Positions 4,116 to 50,655 of a DNA stretch of 50,655 nucleotides are shown here, piece by piece (position 1 is the first letter of the stretch; every line of letters starts with the position of its first letter). Position numbers and translations under genes: made by a program. Where the stretch lies: IMG/VR virus record IMGVR_UViG_3300020377_000007, positions 1 through 50,655 of that record; one strand, given 5' to 3'. The stretch comes from a virus. The notes beneath the pieces were generated by a model. The model was not told where the DNA came from. It ran no database searches and saw nothing but the letters and a program-made list of their open reading frames with translations.

Positions 4116-5648
4116 ATGAATGAAACAATAGTAAAGCACTTAAACTTTGGTGAGAGTGCTAAAAATAAAATATTTCAAGGAATAGATAAACTCACAAAAG
4201 CCGTTAGCTCTACACTAGGAGCTAGCGGTAGATGTGTTATAATGGAAGATTCAGCTGGAAATCCACAGATTACGAAAGATGGCGTAACCGTTGCTAATAG
4301 TGTTATATTATTAGATCCAGTTGAAAACATGGGTGCTAAGCTAATAAAAGAAGCGGCTAGAAAAACCGTTATAGAAGCCGGTGATGGTACTACAACAGCT
4401 ACTGTTTTAGCAAGAGCCATATTAAATGAAGCTTATAAGAACAAAGATTTATCACCAAGAAGTATTAAAGAAGGAATTAATTCAGCTGTAGAAAAAGTTG
4501 TAAAGTATATAGAAAAAAATTCATATAAAATAAACGATAAAGATATACAACATGTTGCAACTATATCAGCTAACAACGATATTCAATTAGGAGAGTTAAT
4601 AGCAGAAGCATTTCAAAATGTTGGAAAAGACGGTTTAGTAATCATGGAAACGCATGATAAGCCATCTACTGAAGTAGAAGTTATAGAAGGTTTGGAATAC
4701 GATCAAGGATATGTAAATAGTAACCTTGTAACAAATAAAACTACTAGAGATGCGGAGTTGATAAACCCATTAGTCTTGATAGTAGATTCTCCTATTGAAA
4801 ATATTAGAAAAATACAAAGCGTATTAGAGCATGTTATAACAGAAAAGAAATCACTGTTAATAATAGCTGATGTTGAGCCACAAGTAAGTAATGCCTTAGC
4901 TATGAACAAAGTTAAAGGTAATATAAAAGTTAATGTTATAAAAGCACCAACATACGGTGTTAACAGAAAAACAACATTAGAAGACTTAGCTATGGTTACG
5001 GGTGCTCAAGTAGTTAGCGAAGAGCTTGGAGACGACTTAGACTTAATAGACTTAAACTGTTTAGGTAGCTGCTCAAAAGCAACTTCATCGTCAGTTAAAA
5101 CTATCATACAGGTAAAAGAAAAAACAGATGAGGTTGTTAAAACAATAAAAAAGCTAGAGAAAACATATGAATCTAGTAGTGGTATTATAAAAGATAATTT
5201 ACAAAAAAGAATATCAACGCTAAAAGGTAAGGTAAGTATTGTAAGAGTTGGAGCAAACTCAGAAGTAGAATTAAAAGAAAAGAAAGATAGAGTTGAAGAC
5301 GCTATTTGTGCTACAAAAGCCGCAGTTAAAGAAGGCATAGTACCAGGAGGAGGTATAGCTTTGTTAAATGCAGCTGTTAATATAAAAGCTAAAAATGAAG
5401 GTGAGAAAATATTGCTTAAAGCAATAAAGGCACCTTATGAAACAATATTAGCTAACGCAGGTCTCGATGTTGTTTATCCTGAAGTTAAAAACAAAGGTTT
5501 AAACGTTGTTACAGGAAAAGAGGTAAATATGGTTAAAGCAGGGATTATAGATCCTTTACTGGTTACTAAGTGTGCTTTGAGAAATGCGGCTTCCGTAGCT
5601 ACAACTATATTGTCAACTGATTGTGTAATTAATAACTTAAGAGCATGA
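4116..5648 (+). CDS. groEL: Phage-encoded chaperonin GroEL (Hsp60)
   Basis: This 510-residue protein is a group I chaperonin subunit, which forms ATP-driven rings that fold proteins in a closed chamber. The signatures are clear: ITKDGVTVA with the conserved Asp at D55, the nucleotide-binding EAGDGTTTATVLA with D90, and RVEDAICATKAAVKEG with D395 (E. coli D398), followed by PGGG. Differences from host GroEL: the GPKGRN loop reads GASGRC, and the protein stops at NNLRA without the Gly-Gly-Met tail, so it is shorter than the roughly 548-residue E. coli protein. It overlaps the co-chaperonin gene by an ATGA junction, implying translational coupling. In the late unit its likely clients are virion proteins. 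Confidence 0.96.
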   Translation: MNETIVKHLNFGESAKNKIFQGIDKLTKAVSSTLGASGRCVIMEDSAGNPQITKDGVTVANSVILLDPVENMGAKLIKEAARKTVIEAGDGTTTATVLARAILNEAYKNKDLSPRSIKEGINSAVEKVVKYIEKNSYKINDKDIQHVATISANNDIQLGELIAEAFQNVGKDGLVIMETHDKPSTEVEVIEGLEYDQGYVNSNLVTNKTTRDAELINPLVLIVDSPIENIRKIQSVLEHVITEKKSLLIIADVEPQVSNALAMNKVKGNIKVNVIKAPTYGVNRKTTLEDLAMVTGAQVVSEELGDDLDLIDLNCLGSCSKATSSSVKTIIQVKEKTDEVVKTIKKLEKTYESSSGIIKDNLQKRISTLKGKVSIVRVGANSEVELKEKKDRVEDAICATKAAVKEGIVPGGGIALLNAAVNIKAKNEGEKILLKAIKAPYETILANAGLDVVYPEVKNKGLNVVTGKEVNMVKAGIIDPLLVTKCALRNAASVATTILSTDCVINNLRA

Positions 5649-5905
5649 GACCAGTCGGCAAGCATATATTGATAAAAGAAGACAAAACTAAAACTAGTGT
5701 AACTAAAAAAGGTTTAATATTAGATCAAAAGAATAGAGAAGATGTTAGGTACATTAAAGCTAGTGTAATAAATGTCGGTGATGAAGTTTCTATAGTTAAT
5801 AAAAATGATATTATATATTACGATAGACACGCTGGCTTTGATTTAGATGTTGACAATGTTATTTACAAAGTGGTTAAAGAAAGTGACGTTGTTGTTATAT
5901 TATGA
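5645..5905 (+). CDS. groES: GroES-like co-chaperonin
   Basis: The 86-residue protein fits the GroES fold, the lid of the GroEL chamber: N-terminal RPVGKHILIKED, a flexible loop with the hydrophobic tripeptide in KGLILD (compare GGIVL in E. coli) that would dock on GroEL, the strand VINVGDEV, then NDIIYYDRHAG and the closing KVVKESDVVVIL. It is slightly shorter than the 97-residue E. coli protein. Its ATG lies inside the end of groEL (ATGA overlap), and its own stop overlaps the next start the same way, so three genes are chained. This adjacency supports a matched phage chaperonin pair. Confidence 0.9.
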   Translation: MRPVGKHILIKEDKTKTSVTKKGLILDQKNREDVRYIKASVINVGDEVSIVNKNDIIYYDRHAGFDLDVDNVIYKVVKESDVVVIL

Positions 5906-45800: not shown

Positions 45801-47057
45801 GTTGTTAGCTATTTCTTAACAAAAGGTTTTGCATTGACTCAGTTTGCAGATAGTTTTGCTATAGCTACTGGAGGAGCTACGTTTTATAGAAATAGAGTTA
45901 ATACTTATATGAAACAAGGTTTAAGTAAAGCTGAAGCTGAACAAAAAGCTTTTTTAGATTTCAGAGATACAGCTGAAGAATCACAGCAATCCGCTAGAGC
46001 TGATAAAATATCTCAACAACAAGCAAGTACTTTAGGTAGAATAGTATTAGCTTTTGCCAATACTCCATCTCAGTATGCTAGAATAATGGACAAAGCAGGT
46101 CAAGATTTAATAAACGGTAGAGGTGATGCAAAAGCCAACATAAGTAAGATAATGTATTATGGGTTTGTTCAAAACTTAATGTTTACAGCCTTACAATCAG
46201 CATTGTTTGCTGAAGGTTTTGGTGATGATGAAGATGATGTTGATTTAGAGTATTTCAAAAACAAAGGTCTAAGCGATAAAGAGGCTAAAGAGTCTATGGA
46301 ATATTACAATTCTAGAGATAGTAAAAAAGATATAGATACAGCAAACAGCATGTTAGATAATATAATGAGAGGTTTAGGTGTTCAAGGTGTTATATTAGCA
46401 ACAGCTAAAAATGTTTTATTAGATCTTTATAGAAGATCACAGAAAGAAGGTCAATACCCTGGACCTGAATACGGTGACAATGCTTGGAAATTATTAGAGG
46501 TTAGTCCTCCTATTTCTATAAAAGCAAAAAAATATAAAGGAGGTATGAGAGATTTTGAAATGAACTCTTGGAGACCCGAAGCTAAACAACCTTTTAATAT
46601 TAACAATCCTTCTTACAGAGCAGCGGCTAAAGTAATTGCAGCTGTTACTAACGTTCCTTTAGATAGGGTATTTCAAAAATTAGAAAACATTCAAGGAGCT
46701 ATGGATGAAACCAATGAGTCTTGGCAAAGAGTAGCTATGCTTTTAGGTTGGCCTAAATGGCAGTTAGAAAATGAAAAACAAAAAGCTGATAGATTTGCAG
46801 AAGAAAAAGAAGGAAGAAAAGAATATAGACAATACGTTAAAAATAAAAATATTAGAAAGTATAAGCCAATGACTCTTAAACAAGCTGCTGATAAGAAAAA
46901 AGCAGAGAAGTTGGCTGAACAAACTAAAACTTTATTTAAATTAAAAAAAGCAGAACAAATAGATAGTCTTAGACAGTTAGGTTTAACTACAGACGCTATT
47001 AAAAGACTCAAGTACGAAGAGGACAGAGTAAATAAAATAATAGAACTAAACAAATAA
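36828..47057 (+). CDS. Giant polyvalent virion protein with peptidase-, nuclease- and HAD-like domains
   Basis: This 3409-residue protein is probably packaged and injected. An acidic N-terminus (MKKYIYNNMNFSQEDIDLAA) leads to helical regions, then hydrophobic Gly/Ala-rich segments near residues 738-769, 824-861 and 995-1015 that could enter membranes. HEGAH at 1354-1358 with E1414 downstream fits a zinc-peptidase-like site. D2171, E2184 and K2186 (KADF, VELK) with an upstream Glu near 2133 fit a PD-(D/E)XK nuclease. DFDDT at 2478-2482, T2557, K2594 and DD at 2613-2614 give all four HAD phosphatase motifs. A helical C-terminus ends in an NTPSQYARIMDKAGQ-type region and PFNINNPSYRAAA. Such domain mosaics match polyvalent phage proteins thought to act on host cell start-up. 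Activities are inferred from motifs. Confidence 0.85.
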   Translation: MKKYIYNNMNFSQEDIDLAAERDKISVDDYLSSNPSIEVIEDDTVEPIDVSESFKPIKTGNVDIDNLFKIGSENTTNNEEVNIDVDTEEIKLDKDIDTETNGEDDGLASKSKISLFRTRKLKNKVKRIIEETEPIEDVLNTNIASDRIIVKTNDDGTESFYSLYDILKSEKNDSIFDKIKDRGFENISDFINELGDNYKLGVETDVVETEGKILKDFETVAVENWSDKTKREMNATDFLNAVDWIEIFNDTENVAKYSLDNLLPSGFKTREVAWFRDRIEITPPDGGTPMVFQVDLNPNKEKQNEIAISEIAKLKTFILSYKEEKDASGKVIKPGWSEEEYKEERDSFKNEFKKLINTSVNDGGVKISEEQVKEVEDYNSIKNIREALVTSNLAIVGSMGYSGEVKGWFNQAYNQGNFDRKRDGLPEYDFSIEELQKLELDTINEAMKQLDIKPAARTNKEALILGESHGPLVGLSKDKVSRVMDYVDTVLRANSDYQDVLKRTREIAIQNGLAGQLESNIEKYAERDWWSKSSQSLGEGTAGSAMLKAENDYLLKTAELQANALKDNYLEKQKELTENPFAPIIKNWANENAFASLENIEGEANIANINFVNKLSGLTIMPETDLDGLVMEDVYVKIQGEKDDEGRDLIFIIKKGESLYENINKDLTQKGSNAPVLLMPSSSIVTYNNQKSNVLFAQAELEKRTQDMLDEIENLPTFAEQVEAWDKNYNELERFGVTLGISGISLAKDLTIGAAMLTAYINPLYWGGKMVGVDMIKDLAENNAYLSRMLEVEKEGYNFNTSSFAQGNLTSWEGLKAYGEWSMDTLADTLPIMCVMILSGGSSSYATAITSGLAGLSAAGGKMTQNDLNNLKIEEQIKDVQSSDISQEEKDIQVKELNKKIKTAGSGKYMLDMAFSFVNEAVFASLTTAKWGAKMNKMIFANGNASTRQLYNSFGDRIYSNVKSFFKEGTKEGLGETGVNTFENVYEGRPLSQGGLEAFAGGFVVSSIMGGVGQSASSMTKINYTSNKEINNLTQSQIKLVDAHKSLDIINEAIESVKKKEGDPTKSLNIPDNIKRLEQLEKMKAKEESRVSDLMGEIETQINEIDSKLQDQGMRLSAAERYTRNQAEMAKLRTEALNLAADPNSDKKGTTENKLLNEINEKFKKLENENQFFLNADSFGHEWNARKGEAIYDSKVAEENAVIVSEAVNNIKEQKGNIDYVPNESEIDAEAKKIIDTMTYNDNNARAEAIADAGGWQYNNSETNAEGVEIVEQAYNNYINSLSDVDANSTVEVAGKDGTTVEMNYVDFLNMKKDNAIEGVNDGSVNGFYDNDIKAQFNFKENAIKNQKPGVPLHEGAHGATETLIEKDPAAFEESGRILVEFLKSTQPEIFNKMIVEGTNGLRQEGGSKWDFSEVFSSFVEEVAGGNIDLKAHNDFTAFFGMKLNEGLQKSSNGEFRVDFKGTNDINSFFTSLAQQIGLGEVSMETMAELRARQDDQGGEVIDINKDQDQTEKQASRLAASETKKSKTSDTKSKLVEENKMLLKEKPKGFMDKIKANAKKIKELVSGTDNAQTDPSSDIAKKAKKRINEAVDKVRNKIPAWKEGNRQKPNRVLDKLFNDIGSDLDGMIAAKAKNFVTNDKSVVDLTKNVDLKELQQAVKTELLADIRGFNKNNDSLYGYINSRLKQRIGDVLPDLWTDMSQKDIDNLSTSDTKTINKTNENKTLIESVPDVNLRESLDIDRDSPLGDLIMETVEKVLGTKMPEFKYVRKNKGGKRTNVSLADVKKVLSTNPTGPTKRQAERDLAGIYKKFSNDLEARFAEELRDAFVETFGSRTDYTNWLDINADAISDLSIEKLVAFERLVKGDKIFTEVVKENLSVEEVKQLEGTGLLVSATTNQGPTLYKKLNPTKQQVIDFFDIKGSKKGTRKDALADKISGELALNATMEIASKPEVMEKFELGLEDSGTGEVIVKSYLEDVSKAINRGVDLKFSRAFRGSDAPLELKNTYRNGRKPFVNLLAKLGITEENVNAAWQQIFGETDFKLNKNKKYKNLILKEWRGLSRNISKIESIISSEVQMGILNSIIDESVEVTDTERAELIAKAKNQALTTKRDVDFDDILTALAENLGLTKGYAYEQLVYDSTEIAIKNWNKNNPETPLRLEGNRGEDGGKADFIATIGGQEFNVELKLEKPRFGSVTIKTTTDTNGNIDFNIKKDYSFNSDLLKSIEDAKKDIKNYVDRANEIGKERFKENWLEYKFGDLLEKSIFNQLKEEGLQKKITRTLTTSTDTVAELYWAKGNGTAYMNIYNKGLYKLRNSMDPSLENPANLNGEAVPYLDGTVDWSFSIGKSTAKSKGGPTNYKNAGIKLENGKLPGSEGWANVGLRYQPSNMKGLPDAKYDMSSVEGVTKLMGDPVMQKLVNEKGESASSNIKTNSESKVVKENKLSKTTNKETIRQAEILDKALNIARDPNAPIKKIRVFDFDDTLARSNSLVFYKMPDGTEGKLTAEEFAKKGDDILNNGGVFDFTDFNTVREGKPGPLLDLAKKIQEARGTEDVFVLTARAPESQIAIKEFLDSQGLDIPIENITGLGDSSPLAKSSWMVDKAAEGYNDFYFADDALKNVDAVDIAMSVIDVKSKTQQAKIKFSKTVGEVMNDIIYDKTGIESYKEYSSMRAKAKGRTKRSFSLIPPSAQDFGGLLYKLLAKGEKGDAQWQWMQENLVKPFSRAMNDLSVAQNQLMSDFRSLKKSIKGIPTNLKKKAFGGFTYEDITRVAAWNRQGINVEGLSKRDLKQITEFVDGNEEISLFVDQLIELGKGDGYHYPGGDWLAGTITTDFIGGLRKDTRPRLLEQWNSNIDMAFDEKTFNKLEAAFGPKYVEALKDSIRRMKTGQNRKQGTSRLEARFQDYINNSVGAVMFLNARSAVLQTISAANFVNWSDNNPLKAGKAFANQKQYWTDFMYLMNSDFLVDRRNGLKINVSESEIAEAAKTTGNSFKSVVSYFLTKGFALTQFADSFAIATGGATFYRNRVNTYMKQGLSKAEAEQKAFLDFRDTAEESQQSARADKISQQQASTLGRIVLAFANTPSQYARIMDKAGQDLINGRGDAKANISKIMYYGFVQNLMFTALQSALFAEGFGDDEDDVDLEYFKNKGLSDKEAKESMEYYNSRDSKKDIDTANSMLDNIMRGLGVQGVILATAKNVLLDLYRRSQKEGQYPGPEYGDNAWKLLEVSPPISIKAKKYKGGMRDFEMNSWRPEAKQPFNINNPSYRAAAKVIAAVTNVPLDRVFQKLENIQGAMDETNESWQRVAMLLGWPKWQLENEKQKADRFAEEKEGRKEYRQYVKNKNIRKYKPMTLKQAADKKKAEKLAEQTKTLFKLKKAEQIDSLRQLGLTTDAIKRLKYEEDRVNKIIELNK

Positions 47058-47059
47058 TT

Positions 47060-47191
47060 ATGGCTTACAAAATGAAACACAGAACTTCACCTGTAATGAA
47101 AAAAGGACCTTGTTGGAAAGGATATGAAATGGTGGGAATGAAGAAAAAAGGTGGTAGAAAAGTACCTAATTGCGTACCTAAAAATAAATAG
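47060..47191 (+). CDS. Small conserved CWKGY protein with SP motif
   Basis: A 43-residue basic peptide starting 2 bases after the giant gene: MAYKMKHRTSPVMKKGPCWK, then GYEMVGMKKKGGRKVPNCVP. The CWKGYEMVGMK ... KVPNCVP pattern is one I recall as a widespread tiny marine-phage protein of unknown role; its two Cys might pair. It also contains the SP motif found in four larger proteins here, which suggests a shared particle function. The gene after it begins within 2 bases, so translation is probably coupled. Confidence 0.68.
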   Translation: MAYKMKHRTSPVMKKGPCWKGYEMVGMKKKGGRKVPNCVPKNK

Positions 47192-47193
47192 TC

Positions 47194-47487
47194 ATGTCAC
47201 TTAAAAGACCGGGAAGATGTAAGTCTCCGCTAAATGCAGGCGAGCCTAGAAAAACTACTAAAGGCAAAGGTAGAAATTTTAGAACTACCGAAGAAGGAGC
47301 AGGTATGACTAAAAAAGGTGTAGATGAATATAGAAGAAAAAATCCAGGTAGTAAACTTAAAACAGCTGTAACAGGAGATGTTAAACCAGGTAGCAAAGCC
47401 GCTAAACGTAGAAAATCTTTTTGTGCTAGATCAAGAGGTTGGACAGGTGAAAGAGGAAAAGCTGCTAGAAAAAGATGGAAATGTTAG
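47194..47487 (+). CDS. DUF6321-like basic phage protein
   Basis: A 97-residue, very basic protein whose second half (YRRKNPGSKLKTAVTGDVKP, GSKAAKRRKSFCARSRGWTG and a closing RKRWKC) has the look of the DUF6321 family, with the typical SKLKTAVT, KAAKRRKSFCAR and terminal (R)KW-x-C blocks. Function of the family is unknown; size, charge and Cys suggest a nucleic-acid-binding or compact metal-binding protein. Residues 8-14 contain another SP motif (CKSPLNAG). It overlaps the phosphatase gene by 13 bases. Confidence 0.82.
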   Translation: MSLKRPGRCKSPLNAGEPRKTTKGKGRNFRTTEEGAGMTKKGVDEYRRKNPGSKLKTAVTGDVKPGSKAAKRRKSFCARSRGWTGERGKAARKRWKC

Positions 47488-48002
47488 AAGATTTTGACAT
47501 AAGTTATTTTAAAAATAGAAAACCGCCTAGTGACAACTCGTTAAAGACTTTCAACGAGATATCTAATTTGTCTAAAATAAAAATAAATAAAGATTTTATA
47601 AATAAAAATGATGATGTTGAGACTGAGTTTAAGAACGTAGTTGGAGATGACAGCGACATTGATATATTAATAGAACAATCTGTTCCTCACATAAAGAAAT
47701 TAAAAAATTATTTTAATAGACCTAGACCAAAAGACTTGGCTAAAAACTTTGGATTAAAATTAGAAAATGTAGAGTTAAAATCTATGGATACTCCTTCATA
47801 TCCATCAGGACATTCAGCACAAGGTTTTTTGATTGGTGATTATTTAAAAAATAAATATCCAGAAAAAACAAAAGAATTAGATAAAGTTGCTAACGACATT
47901 TCAGATAGTAGAAACGTTGCTAGAGCTCACTACAAGTCTGACTCTGACTTTGGTAAAGAATTAGGTTTAGCAATGAGTAAACATATAAGGAACAAAAAAT
48001 AA
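47475..48002 (+). CDS. PAP2-family phosphatase-like protein
   Basis: The 175-residue protein has the full acid-phosphatase/PAP2 signature: K75-x6-R82-P83 (KLKNYFNRP), P110-S-G-H113 (YPSGHS) and S145-R146-x5-H152-x3-D156. In this family the two His residues carry out phospho-transfer and the Lys/Arg residues bind phosphate. There is no signal peptide or membrane helix, so it would act in the cytoplasm or in the particle. Such genes recur near the end of virion modules in marine phages; the substrate is unknown (lipid phosphate, nucleotide or protein phosphate are all possible). Overlaps both neighbours, so is likely coupled. Confidence 0.9.
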   Translation: MEMLEDFDISYFKNRKPPSDNSLKTFNEISNLSKIKINKDFINKNDDVETEFKNVVGDDSDIDILIEQSVPHIKKLKNYFNRPRPKDLAKNFGLKLENVELKSMDTPSYPSGHSAQGFLIGDYLKNKYPEKTKELDKVANDISDSRNVARAHYKSDSDFGKELGLAMSKHIRNKK

Positions 48003-48241
48003 TGGAAGAAATATTAAACTTAGTAAAAGAATTTGGATTATCTTTAGTGATAGCAATAGGAGCTTTATATGCTTTATATCAGTTTTTCTTTTTTAGTATT
48101 AGAGAAGTTAAAACAACGTTTGAAAAAAGACATGAAACAAATGCTAAGAATATGGAGGAAGTTAAAGTACGTTTAGCAGAAATAAAATCTGATCTTAAAA
48201 TATTAGTTGAGTTTATAAAAGAAATGAATAAAAATAAATAA
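48002..48241 (+). CDS. One-span membrane protein with coiled coil
   Basis: A 79-residue protein with one membrane segment (about 12-33, FGLSLVIAIGALYALYQFFF) followed by a charged helix (KNMEEVKVRLAEIKSDLKIL). It starts in a TAATG junction with the phosphatase gene and is the last gene of the rightward block. The layout resembles small phage membrane proteins of the BhlA/holin-like type and also spanin-like proteins, so a lysis or membrane role is possible, but it is far from the amidase. Confidence 0.62.
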   Translation: MEEILNLVKEFGLSLVIAIGALYALYQFFFFSIREVKTTFEKRHETNAKNMEEVKVRLAEIKSDLKILVEFIKEMNKNK

Positions 48242-48279
48242 GGAACACTAAAAAAATGGGCACCATACCCAAAGTTCCT
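48241..48279 (+). other. Imperfect stem-loop ahead of the terminator
   Basis: AGGAAC (48241-48246) pairs with GTTCCT (48274-48279), and inside it TGGG (48257-48260) pairs with CCCA (48268-48271). There is no T-run, so it is not itself a terminator; it could be an RNA 3' structure or processing site next to the terminator at 48287. Short stems, moderate support. Confidence 0.4.
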
Positions 48280-48286
48280 GTAACAA

Positions 48287-48314
48287 AAAAGGGAGGTCTT
48301 TCGGCCTCCCTTTT
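48287..48314. terminator. Symmetric (bidirectional) terminator between convergent units
   Basis: AAAAGGGAGG (48287-48296) and CCTCCCTTTT (48305-48314) form a stem with A-rich and T-rich flanks on both sides; TC/GG extends it by a wobble and a C-G pair around a TTTC loop. Because both strands show a GC stem followed by a T-run, it can stop rightward transcription from the late block and leftward transcription after the reductase and micro-ORF. Confidence 0.93.
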
Positions 48315-48319
48315 ATTAT

Positions 48320-48358
48320 TTAGCAGCCACCACAGTAGCTATCGCAATATGGACACAT
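48320..48358 (-). CDS. Cys-rich 12-residue micro-ORF downstream of the reductase
   Basis: On the minus strand an ATG at 48358 opens a 12-codon frame, MCPYCDSYCGGC, stopping at 48320-48322 just before the terminator stem. Five of the features are striking: 4 Cys in 12 residues, the CPYC of glutaredoxin active sites, a second CxxC (CGGC), an AT-rich start context (aaaacaaacattATG) and a place 17 bases after the reductase stop. The reductase needs its Cys pairs reduced each turnover, so a tiny redox or zinc-binding peptide is thinkable. It is too short for certainty; chance or a leftover 3' end of a gene are alternatives. Confidence 0.45.
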   Translation of the reverse strand: MCPYCDSYCGGC

Positions 48359-48375
48359 AATGTTTGTTTTAAAAA

Positions 48376-50238
48376 TTAAGTAATTTCACAAGCACCGCCA
48401 GCGCAAGCAAGCTCACCACTAAGATCAGTGTTGTCTTCAGTTTCGATAACATTTTCTAAATTTATGTTAGTTAAGTGTTGTAACTTATTTATATAAGTTC
48501 CTTCATCTATATCTTCAAAAGGTGCTTGAGTATATGTTCCACCATCATATGGTAACACAGATAAACCATTATAGTGTTTTCTATTATTCCACATCCACTC
48601 TCCAGCATCTTCCCACTCTCCAGGTTCTAAACTAACAGTAGCAGAAACATTATGAGTGTTAGATCCTTTTCTATGACCAGGTAATACCCACTCTGTTGCT
48701 ACTTTTTTTATGCGTTCAAGTAATTGAAAAGGTGATTCAGTTCTAAGTATAGAACCTTCAGGTGCTTTCTGTGGTATACTAATTACAGCTGTATCATGAG
48801 GTCTAAAAAACTCATCTTCAACTAGCATAGGGTGATTTTCAACTAGGTATTTATATATACTTTCGTTTTTACCAACTCTTATCCTACGTACGTAATAATC
48901 ATTATGCCATGCGTGAATACCCGATGACGTTCCCAGTGCCAGAGATGTCGTCCCTGCTGGCTTTACGGTTGTACATCTAGCTGCAGAATTAATTCCAATC
49001 AGCTTCGCGACTCTTGCGTTTTCTCTTTTTACTACTTGAGCGGCTTTCTTCATGTCGTATCCTAACACCGTGCCCGAGCCTATCCCAGTCATCGAGACGC
49101 CTATTAAAGCGTCTTTCTCTGTTGTTTGTTGCCATACTTCTCTTAAATAGTGAAAGTCAGTATATCCCGCTTGTAACGTACCTATAAAGGCAGCGGCTTT
49201 CACTCGTTCGTTTAAATCTTCTTGTGATTCAATATCACTAGCATTTACTTCACACAGGTTACAAAACTGATATGGTCGTAAAGCTATTTCACAACAAGGG
49301 TTTGTACCCCAGTCTTTATCATTGTTAAAATATATTCCAGGTTCTCCTGCTCCTGATAGTTCTACACGTTTCCAAAGATCCATAAAAAAATCTTTAGTAA
49401 TTTTATGTCTCATAAGAACAGCAGAGTTGTTAGCTCTTCCTCTTTGTGGATTTGTTTCCCACCAATTTCCAGACTTCGATGAGATCATCTCGTTGTCGTC
49501 TGCGGAAAACAAACTTATTAGAGCTGCTCGACGTATCCCACCAGCTAAAACCGCGTCTGCTATATGGCAAACTATATCGTGTACTTCTAATGTGGATAGA
49601 GTATCTGCTTCTTCCTTTAAATCTAAGACTCCTGTTATTTTTACTATACATTCCTTTAGTGGTTGAGGTCCAGGTGCTTTACCACCAGACGTTACTAACA
49701 TTGCACCTTTTGGTCGTATATCTGAGTAGTCAAACTCTATACGTGAACTTCTTTTATTACCTAAATATGATTTCATTAACACTTTAATAGCATCAGCCCA
49801 ACCTTCAATTGAATCGCCTATTAAAAATCTTCTAGTTCTTTTTGTATATGGCTTTGTTATTGGTGGTAATTTATCAACATGATGTTGTTGTACAGAATAA
49901 CCTACGCCAGTGCCACCTAGTAATAGAAACATTATTTCATTAAACGATTCAACATGATCAATAGGTAAGTAAGCACAATTATAAACACGATTAGGTGATA
50001 TTTCAATCGGTTTACCTCCAAACTGAAGCGACCGCATAGATGGTAAAATCTTTTTTTCATAGACTAATTTATATGTTTTTTTAATGTCGTCTGTGAGATC
50101 AGGATATTTTTTAATATGCATATTCATGTTGCGTGTTACTAGTTCATCCCACGTCTCCCTACGATTTAATTCAGGAATATATTTTGCATATTTCATGTAA
50201 ACTGTTATATCACTTAGTATCTTGTTTGATAGCTCCAT
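48376..50238 (-). CDS. nrdJ: Class II ribonucleotide reductase, monomeric B12-dependent type
   Basis: The 620-residue enzyme reduces ribonucleotides to deoxyribonucleotides using adenosylcobalamin. Key residues match the Lactobacillus leichmannii RTPR type: C88 (VYNCAY) and C326 form the active-site redox pair, N313-P-C315-C-E317 carries the thiyl Cys (C315) and catalytic Glu, the C315-C326 spacing of 11 equals C408-C419, and the tail C612-x4-C617 (ACAGGACEIT) equals C731-x4-C736. It is shorter than the 739-residue Lactobacillus enzyme, mostly by N-terminal trimming. No intein or frameshift is visible. It supplies dNTPs for phage DNA synthesis and depends on host cobalamin. Located on the minus strand, overlapping the upstream 72-residue gene by 29 bases. 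Confidence 0.95.
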   Translation of the reverse strand: MELSNKILSDITVYMKYAKYIPELNRRETWDELVTRNMNMHIKKYPDLTDDIKKTYKLVYEKKILPSMRSLQFGGKPIEISPNRVYNCAYLPIDHVESFNEIMFLLLGGTGVGYSVQQHHVDKLPPITKPYTKRTRRFLIGDSIEGWADAIKVLMKSYLGNKRSSRIEFDYSDIRPKGAMLVTSGGKAPGPQPLKECIVKITGVLDLKEEADTLSTLEVHDIVCHIADAVLAGGIRRAALISLFSADDNEMISSKSGNWWETNPQRGRANNSAVLMRHKITKDFFMDLWKRVELSGAGEPGIYFNNDKDWGTNPCCEIALRPYQFCNLCEVNASDIESQEDLNERVKAAAFIGTLQAGYTDFHYLREVWQQTTEKDALIGVSMTGIGSGTVLGYDMKKAAQVVKRENARVAKLIGINSAARCTTVKPAGTTSLALGTSSGIHAWHNDYYVRRIRVGKNESIYKYLVENHPMLVEDEFFRPHDTAVISIPQKAPEGSILRTESPFQLLERIKKVATEWVLPGHRKGSNTHNVSATVSLEPGEWEDAGEWMWNNRKHYNGLSVLPYDGGTYTQAPFEDIDEGTYINKLQHLTNINLENVIETEDNTDLSGELACAGGACEIT

Positions 50239-50428
50239 TTTTATTTGCTTCTTTAACTTTTGTTTTTACTTTACCTAAAGCTTCCTCGTAGTCTGGCATT
50301 TGCTTTATCGTTTCTAACGTTCCATAAGATAACGTTCTCATATATTCTACTTCATTAACTAAGTGTTGAACTACATTAGTTAAAGCTTTAATCTTGTTTT
50401 GCATCTCTAGCAAAGTATTTTCTTTCAT
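50210..50428 (-). CDS. Small coiled-coil protein upstream of the reductase
   Basis: A 72-residue helical protein (MKENTLLEMQNKIKALTNVV, QHLVNEVEYMRTLSYGTLET) with heptad-like hydrophobic spacing and a charged tail. It overlaps the reductase start by 29 bases and the preceding gene end by 41 bases, so it is part of a compact leftward operon. I recall similar short proteins (GTLETIK and a preceding LREL-like helix) in marine T4-like phages, without a function. It could be a regulatory or assembly partner of the reductase, which is only positional inference. Confidence 0.68.
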   Translation of the reverse strand: MKENTLLEMQNKIKALTNVVQHLVNEVEYMRTLSYGTLETIKQMPDYEEALGKVKTKVKEANKNGAIKQDTK

Positions 50429-50567
50429 ACTCTAATAATTCTTTTAATTTTAAATAACCTTTATTTTCAACGCTCCACTTTATAAATTTTTCTAGTTTAC
50501 GCTCAGCATATTTTCTTCTAGCTAAATCTTTTTGTTCCCAAGAATTAAGTTTACGGTTTCGTCGCAT
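50388..50567 (-). CDS. Small basic hypothetical protein
   Basis: A 59-residue frame starting at the ATG complementary to 50565-50567: MRRNRKLNSWEQKDLARRKY, then ERKLEKFIKWSVENKGYLKL and KELLEYERKYFARDAKQD. It is basic and helical throughout, with no motif I can name. It overlaps the following gene by 41 bases and the preceding partial gene by 46 bases. The overlaps and a well-formed helical sequence support it, but it is too short to be certain. Confidence 0.55.
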   Translation of the reverse strand: MRRNRKLNSWEQKDLARRKYAERKLEKFIKWSVENKGYLKLKELLEYERKYFARDAKQD

Positions 50568-50655
50568 TCTTTTTGATTTTGAGGTTTGTAGATATTAACT
50601 TTAGGTAATTTTTTCGAGGCATACATCTTAAAAAGTTTCCAACGTATAGGAAAAG
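50522..50655 (-). CDS. Partial hypothetical protein (5' end outside window)
   Basis: A frame enters from the right edge on the minus strand and stops at 50522-50524. The visible 44 residues are basic (RWKLFKMYASKKLPKVNIYK near the start, NLILGNKKI at the end). An internal ATG could be the real start (MYASKKLPK), in which case it would be a 34-residue peptide. The overlap with the next gene by 46 bases follows the compact style of this operon. No family recognised. Confidence 0.4.
   Translation of the reverse strand, partial: FPIRWKLFKMYASKKLPKVNIYKPQNQKECDETVNLILGNKKI

Follow-up and report, generated by a model that had tools for sequence, protein, structure and literature searches.

The window (the whole stretch of DNA analyzed here, a virus record of 50,655 bases) carries, directly behind its B12-dependent ribonucleotide reductase gene nrdJ, a 12-codon open reading frame (ORF) belonging to a family of what are almost certainly real protein-coding micropeptide genes. 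This conclusion is drawn because at least four cysteines are kept, changes in the micro-ORF frame are strongly biased toward synonymous ones, and the class with three cysteines is empty. The explanation we favor, reasonably probable on sequence grounds, is that the ORF truly encodes a 12-residue cytosolic peptide of a four-cysteine family, whose cysteines likely form a site for one metal ion.

To our knowledge, functional protein genes of 11-16 codons other than leader peptides are almost unknown, because homology and length cannot find them. The family would rank among the smallest protein genes known, and it provides a clean, testable example of a tiny gene found through synteny and codon pattern. 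It indicates that selection on a gene can be directed almost entirely at a four-Cys motif, and it offers a natural minimal candidate for a metal-binding peptide. More tentatively, these genes may constitute a new near-minimal class: phage metallopeptides of 11-16 codons, usually one per genome, which change their address, dual coding included, and serve a shared step of infection in Flavobacteria.

The Micro-ORF and Its Surroundings

The end of the nrdJ transcript is organized as follows.

48376 to 50238, minus strand: nrdJ, a 620-aa B12-dependent ribonucleotide reductase with a C-terminal Cys pair (...ELACAGGACEIT)
48359 to 48375, minus strand: spacer from the nrdJ stop to the micro-ORF start, 17 nt, A/T-rich, without a Shine-Dalgarno sequence
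48320 to 48358, minus strand: micro-ORF MCPYCDSYCGGC followed by a stop, a member of the four-Cys micropeptide family with a codon-level pattern kept in relatives
48287 to 48314, both strands: strong terminator hairpin with a 12-bp stem and U runs on both sides, the fold being computed

The first-pass annotation had noted a 12-codon minus-strand ATG frame with two CxxC units, including CPYC, placed between the nrdJ stop and a terminator. We confirmed both the frame and its placement. The frame reads ATG TGT CCA TAT TGC GAT AGC TAC TGT GGT GGC TGC TAA (12 codons and a stop) and starts 17 nt past the nrdJ stop, and the intrinsic terminator stem begins a few nucleotides past its own stop. The reductase was identified by a PHROG ribonucleotide reductase match (5e-127) and a Pfam match to the B12-dependent ribonucleotide reductase insertion domain (7e-7). 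The remaining window genes likewise have A/T-rich leaders before their starts and no Shine-Dalgarno sequence, an absence that would be expected of a phage with a Bacteroidota host. Because of its U runs on both sides, the hairpin is usable from either strand; the late operon and the nrdJ/micro-ORF transcript, which converge here, both end at it.

We scanned the window for ORFs that start with ATG, span 9-20 codons, and have the arrangement C..C-(1-4)-C.(1-2)C. Exactly one ORF fitted this four-Cys definition, the micro-ORF at 48320-48358, and 60 dinucleotide-preserving shuffles of the window yielded none. Extension of nrdJ into the micro-ORF by stop-codon readthrough was considered and rejected, as the two frames differ in the window and are the same in L001 (by reading), an arrangement that is not conserved.

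A conserved RNA-like element was also observed on the plus strand at 48241-48279, where the late operon ends, just ahead of the terminator. Its layout, AGGAAC-(A-rich, variable length)-TGGG-loop-CCCA-AA(A)-GTTCCT, forms two nested helices, and its 34 distinct versions in related phages have nearly invariant stems and a variable linker. Folded together with the terminator, the element gave z = -4.9. Some phages have an ATG at its start, opening a frame (MGTIP.. or MGVPYPKVPI followed by a stop) that is not conserved. An Rfam search of 47000-50655 returned only matches far below gathering scores.

Codon-Level Evidence for a Coding Gene

Family peptides are 11-16 residues long, or about 19 with an N-terminal extension, and have no signal peptide. 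Four cysteines arranged as two close pairs are invariant, one pair usually being CPxC, and the gaps vary across relatives (2-4 residues in the first pair, 1-4 in the middle, and 1-2 in the last pair). CPYC is not conserved; relatives show CPIC, CPFC, CPLC, CELC, and CDGC, and the second pair of the class II micropeptides is a terminal CxC. The family is fast-evolving, and its sequences are too short to prove common descent of all copies.

The nearest nrdJ relatives carry an equivalent ORF with altered codons (MCPYCNGYCGSC, MCPYCNSYCCSC, and MCEYCNGYCGGC), and pattern scans of IMG/VR recovered about 40 loci with a four-Cys micro-ORF. Because a Cys-pattern search would bias toward cysteines, loci were also fetched through two upstream neighbors, a thioredoxin-like protein and a 51-aa membrane-type protein. 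Short ORFs directly past the stops of these neighbors had very different sequences, all with at least four cysteines: MCPICNGYCGLC, MCPFCPICICK, MCPFCEICICK, MCDFNCPFCTGC, MCGIPNCPFCIGC, MCELCGGHCGLC, MENICPICISCGFC, MCDGCPGGFCPWC, MCPLCLGGICEYCNS, and MCPLCGGLCGGC. Past the thioredoxin-like gene, where the micro-ORF ATG lies 2-11 nt from the stop, all 46 neighbor-fetched short ORFs with a start no more than 20 nt away had at least four cysteines. When no filter on Cys content was applied, the short ORFs past gene stops contained zero cysteines at 69 loci, one at 10, two at 5, three at 0, four at 76, and five at 7. They fall into two groups, one with 0-2 cysteines (84 loci) and one with 4-5 (83 loci), and three cysteines never occur.

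Substitutions pointed the same way. Within clusters, the micro frame had 59 synonymous and 40 nonsynonymous changes (0.23 expected; p = 2.6e-15), and the other two frames showed no synonymous excess in the same test (p = 0.98 and p = 0.79). The counts come from minimum spanning trees that join the distinct sequences rather than from a phylogeny, which makes the p-values approximate but leaves the contrast between frames unaffected. A larger, partly pattern-selected set agreed (73 synonymous, 49 nonsynonymous, p = 2.6e-19). Among changes in Cys codons, 20 of 23 were synonymous and 3 nonsynonymous. The peptide MCPFCPICICK is encoded by at least three codon versions, and non-Cys residues (CP-aromatic/aliphatic-C, Gly) are also maintained through synonymous change. 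The earlier suggestion of a Cys micropeptide conserved at the codon level and overlooked by gene finders is thus supported by the codon pattern of relatives: the frame and its four Cys codons are both kept, and the synonymous excess, confined to the micro frame, speaks against conservation of the DNA alone. Translation of the micropeptide in vivo is predicted.

Genomic Addresses of the Micropeptide Gene

The gene was found at four kinds of address: (a) directly past nrdJ (the window, L004, L031, and L001); (b) past a small membrane-type protein whose own gene comes after nrdJ (L018, L204-L223); (c) past the thioredoxin-like protein, between a holin-like protein with one transmembrane segment and either an M15-type peptidase or further small genes; and (d) nested in another gene, overlapping its signal-peptide start in a different frame. 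At the thioredoxin-type loci, another gene follows the micro-ORF and there is no terminator. In L114, the micro-ORF lies on the opposite strand and converges on the reductase gene. Whole and partial contigs usually hold one copy per genome, often elsewhere if it is missing past the thioredoxin-like gene; L102 has two, which makes one per genome a tendency and not a rule. Nine contigs of the same phage groups (G009, G030, and seven shorter ones) have no recognizable copy, so the micropeptide is not essential everywhere.

Most of the 89 distinct copies stand alone, and 20 overlap a signal-peptide gene. The genes hosting nested copies encode a DKQLHF protein, a KYGTIY protein of roughly 394 aa, and an MKLWKI..SSC lipoprotein; all MEN-type copies are nested in the start of the last, save one at a contig end. 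Among phages with the KYGTIY gene, 8 have the nested copy, 22 have a copy past the thioredoxin-like gene, and none has both (Fisher p = 0.0006, which ignores relatedness), and KYGTIY genes with other signal peptides contained a four-Cys frame in 0 of 32 cases. The argument for function of the nested copies is built on this exclusivity and on identical peptides, because their codon test by itself is insufficient (9 synonymous, 14 nonsynonymous, p = 0.06). Sharing of DNA between a signal peptide and a Cys-rich peptide is possible because TGY-N reads Val/Ala in the +1 frame, and the nested copies suggest that a stretch encoding a signal peptide can at the same time serve as a micropeptide gene.

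Three further observations concern these loci. Dual-coding loci, with four-Cys micro-ORFs in the signal-peptide starts of unrelated genes, are L100, L101, L122, L129, and L259-L316. In many phages (L124-L203), the gene immediately upstream of the micropeptide encodes an exported thioredoxin-like protein without CxxC; this protein has an N-terminal signal peptide, a Pfam thioredoxin-fold match (2e-7), and FNEANC instead of CxPC at the active site. Directly past the micropeptide stop in L207-L209, L212, and L214 is a putative tRNA-Ala(TGC)-like sequence, possibly an integration or regulatory site.

Relation to the Ribonucleotide Reductase

Coupling of the peptide to the reductase, as proposed in the first-pass annotation, is not supported by the survey of loci. 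The nrdJ gene is the upstream neighbor in the window lineage and not in most others, where the micro-ORF follows thioredoxin-like or membrane-type neighbors or is nested. A micro-ORF lay within 3 kb downstream in 6 of the 80 nrdJ loci fetched (a few of which end too near the gene for a call); 39 of the same loci had a DUF5522-type protein instead, 35 had neither, and none had both. No NrdJ match was found in the 19 thioredoxin-type contigs carrying the micropeptide. A strong match to the RNR-barrel family was present in 17 of these 19, and the six that were read out were of the class I NrdA type by sequence reading, so the reductase link is not specific to the B12-dependent enzyme. All sufficiently long carriers hold some reductase, and so do same-group phages without the micropeptide. 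The role of a dedicated partner of the class II reductase was rejected on the 0/19 and 6/80 counts. As a side observation, about half of the related nrdJ genes (L006-L079) are followed by the DUF5522-type protein (CCGNGCRHCPY), a possible functional stand-in for the micropeptide.

A Candidate Metal Site and Its Rivals

We propose that a 12-residue cytosolic peptide would be translated by re-initiation or coupling directly past the stop of the upstream gene, and that its two Cys pairs would hold one metal ion, with Zn(II) most likely and Fe or Cu possible. The site would be a minimal pair of zinc knuckles or rubredoxin loops, formed by a single peptide, by a dimer, or by the peptide bound to a larger phage or host protein that would serve as its docking partner. 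CPxC and CxxCGG are knuckles of zinc ribbons and rubredoxin. We regard the tetrathiolate reading as fairly probable. A metal site fits better than a dithiol switch because four thiolates lie within 9-12 residues, as two pairs with a flexible linker; for a dithiol switch one pair would suffice, yet the second pair is always kept. The pattern of four retained cysteines, varying gaps, and loss of CPYC itself likewise favors metal over redox chemistry. Of the earlier proposal of a redox or metal-binding micropeptide, the metal-binding half thus appears to fit best, and the glutaredoxin-type half is not supported. A 33-aa four-Cys protein annotated as a zinc ribbon, found at the corresponding place in a related phage genome (MW202828), also speaks for a metal site. 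CPxCG microproteins bind zinc in many cases but not in all (PMC11241148), so zinc is put forward as a candidate metal. With only 12 residues, the peptide may be a weak metal binder unless dimerized or docked. The role of the site could be to dock on a late protein, to time lysis, to deliver metal, or to support the reductase.

The CPYC unit could instead be a glutaredoxin-like dithiol that re-reduces the reductase, or could supply the missing CxxC to the thioredoxin-like protein. The neighboring NrdJ does need its C-terminal Cys pair re-reduced (PMC5704485, PMC6459318), the other neighbor has the thioredoxin fold with FNEANC in place of CxPC, and no thioredoxin or glutaredoxin was found in the window or in four nrdJ-type relatives. 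However, we consider such a redox role unlikely. The window copy shares the four letters CPYC with the glutaredoxin active site, but it lacks the fold, the Tyr (in some classes also the Pro) is not conserved, and the second Cys pair, CxC in the class II peptides, is obligatory. The rarity of the micro-ORF at nrdJ loci (6/80), its presence in phages with class I NrdA, the reliance of a viral monomeric NrdJ on host thioredoxin (PMC6459318), and the signal peptide of the thioredoxin-like protein, which the micropeptide does not have, all weigh against it. A thioredoxin-fold redoxin of about 80-100 residues was rejected on the length of 12 residues and the lack of any thioredoxin or glutaredoxin family match in the window. 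The peptide might also substitute in trans for the zinc-binding Cys-rich domain found at the C-terminus of most class II reductases and encoded separately, as NrdJb, in NrdJa+b enzymes (PMC5704485). That domain coordinates zinc through CxxC pairs, its zinc site acts in reductase turnover, and the monomeric NrdJm never has it (PMC5704485); the window NrdJ lacks it and shows the insertion-domain match typical of monomeric-type B12-dependent enzymes. This substitution is nevertheless highly improbable: the domain and NrdJb share the CxxC...CxxC layout but have 150-220 aa and six cysteines (PMC5704485), a C-terminal Cys pair is already present in the window NrdJ, and the micropeptide is not restricted to nrdJ phages, most relatives lying away from nrdJ on contigs with class I NrdA.

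Two further readings would leave the peptide itself inactive or absent. In a leader-type ORF, stalling at Cys codons would control the next terminator or gene. Cys-rich short ORFs are known as attenuators in mycobacteria, 4 of the 12 codons are Cys, and the terminator begins a few nucleotides past the stop in the window and in nrdJ-type relatives. We judge this very unlikely, as downstream on the minus strand the window holds only the antisense of the converging late operon, thioredoxin-type phages have another gene next instead of a terminator, and synonymous change also preserves non-Cys residues, for which ribosome stalling gives no reason. Finally, the frame could be no gene at all: a conserved RNA or DNA element, or an out-of-frame by-product of hydrophobic signal-peptide codons. 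The nesting of the MEN-type copies in the lipoprotein start (all but the one at a contig end) and the linkage of Cys and Val/Ala codons across frames are compatible with this, but it is extremely improbable given that most of the 89 distinct copies stand alone, codon-level selection is strong in the micro frame only, the four-Cys frame is found in 0 of 32 other signal peptides, nested and stand-alone copies are mutually exclusive, and Rfam gave nothing above gathering scores in 47000-50655.

Comparison with Known Systems

The family resembles the CPxCG zinc-finger microproteins (Haloferax volcanii set, PMC11241148), which are likewise very small and have two CxxC-type pairs; some micropeptides (MCPLCGGLCGGC, MCELCGGHCGLC) share the CPxCG/CxxCGG knuckles. 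CPxCG microproteins have fewer than 70 aa and two C(P)XCG motifs, whereas the micropeptides have 11-16 aa, 1-4 residues between the pairs, and variable spacing. Two C(P)xC-type pairs with four invariant cysteines occur throughout the family (in one class the second pair is CxC), and a Gly after the knuckle in both pairs does not, CPxCG being seen in only some classes. The peptide may work like a minimal pair of zinc knuckles; membership in a zinc-finger family is not claimed, as the usual spacing is absent.

Podoviridae sp. ctfjg026 (MW202828) encodes an A2L-type zinc ribbon (UOF82508.1) that likewise has four cysteines as CxxC...CxxC and lies past the last early-strand gene, converging on a giant structural gene, in a genome with related terminase and portal. 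It differs in having 33 aa with 13-14 residues between the pairs and is not confidently alignable to the micropeptide. This protein, annotated as an A2L zinc ribbon, is L251:416-517 in our locus set. DUF5522 (Pfam PF17653) is likewise short, Cys-rich (CCxxxCxxCPY), and located directly past nrdJ in many related phages, but it has about 65 aa and a defined HMM as opposed to the 12 aa of the window peptide. In a search that had no working positive control, PF17653 matched none of 24 records including the window; the family was detected in other nrdJ-flanking proteins.

Blastn of the micro-ORF region against GenBank phages gave only chance-level matches, two class-I patterns run against 84,980 prokaryote genomes found no micropeptide, and the thioredoxin-like protein was looked for in GenBank phages and found in none. 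Pattern matches in GC-rich phages (MCPACPISCGRCW..., L097/L098/L106/L108) were dismissed as chance, lying in a longer open frame without a stop. The open-access literature searched contained no description of such a four-Cys micropeptide family. A global smORF catalogue predicts ORFs of at least 30 nt (PMC11364881) and may hold the micropeptide as anonymous entries.

Phage and Probable Host

Terminase and portal relatives among GenBank phages were only Flavobacteriales phages, infecting Flavobacterium, Cellulophaga, Tenacibaculum, and Maribacter, and one uncultured genome. The carriers of the four-Cys micropeptide are marine phages with Flavobacteria as their probable hosts. No micropeptide was present in the two genomes scanned from cultured relatives by terminase and portal (Elemovirus and Callevirus). 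The window also encodes a phage GroEL and GroES pair (4116-5905, plus strand), which is likewise found in these cultured flavophage relatives.
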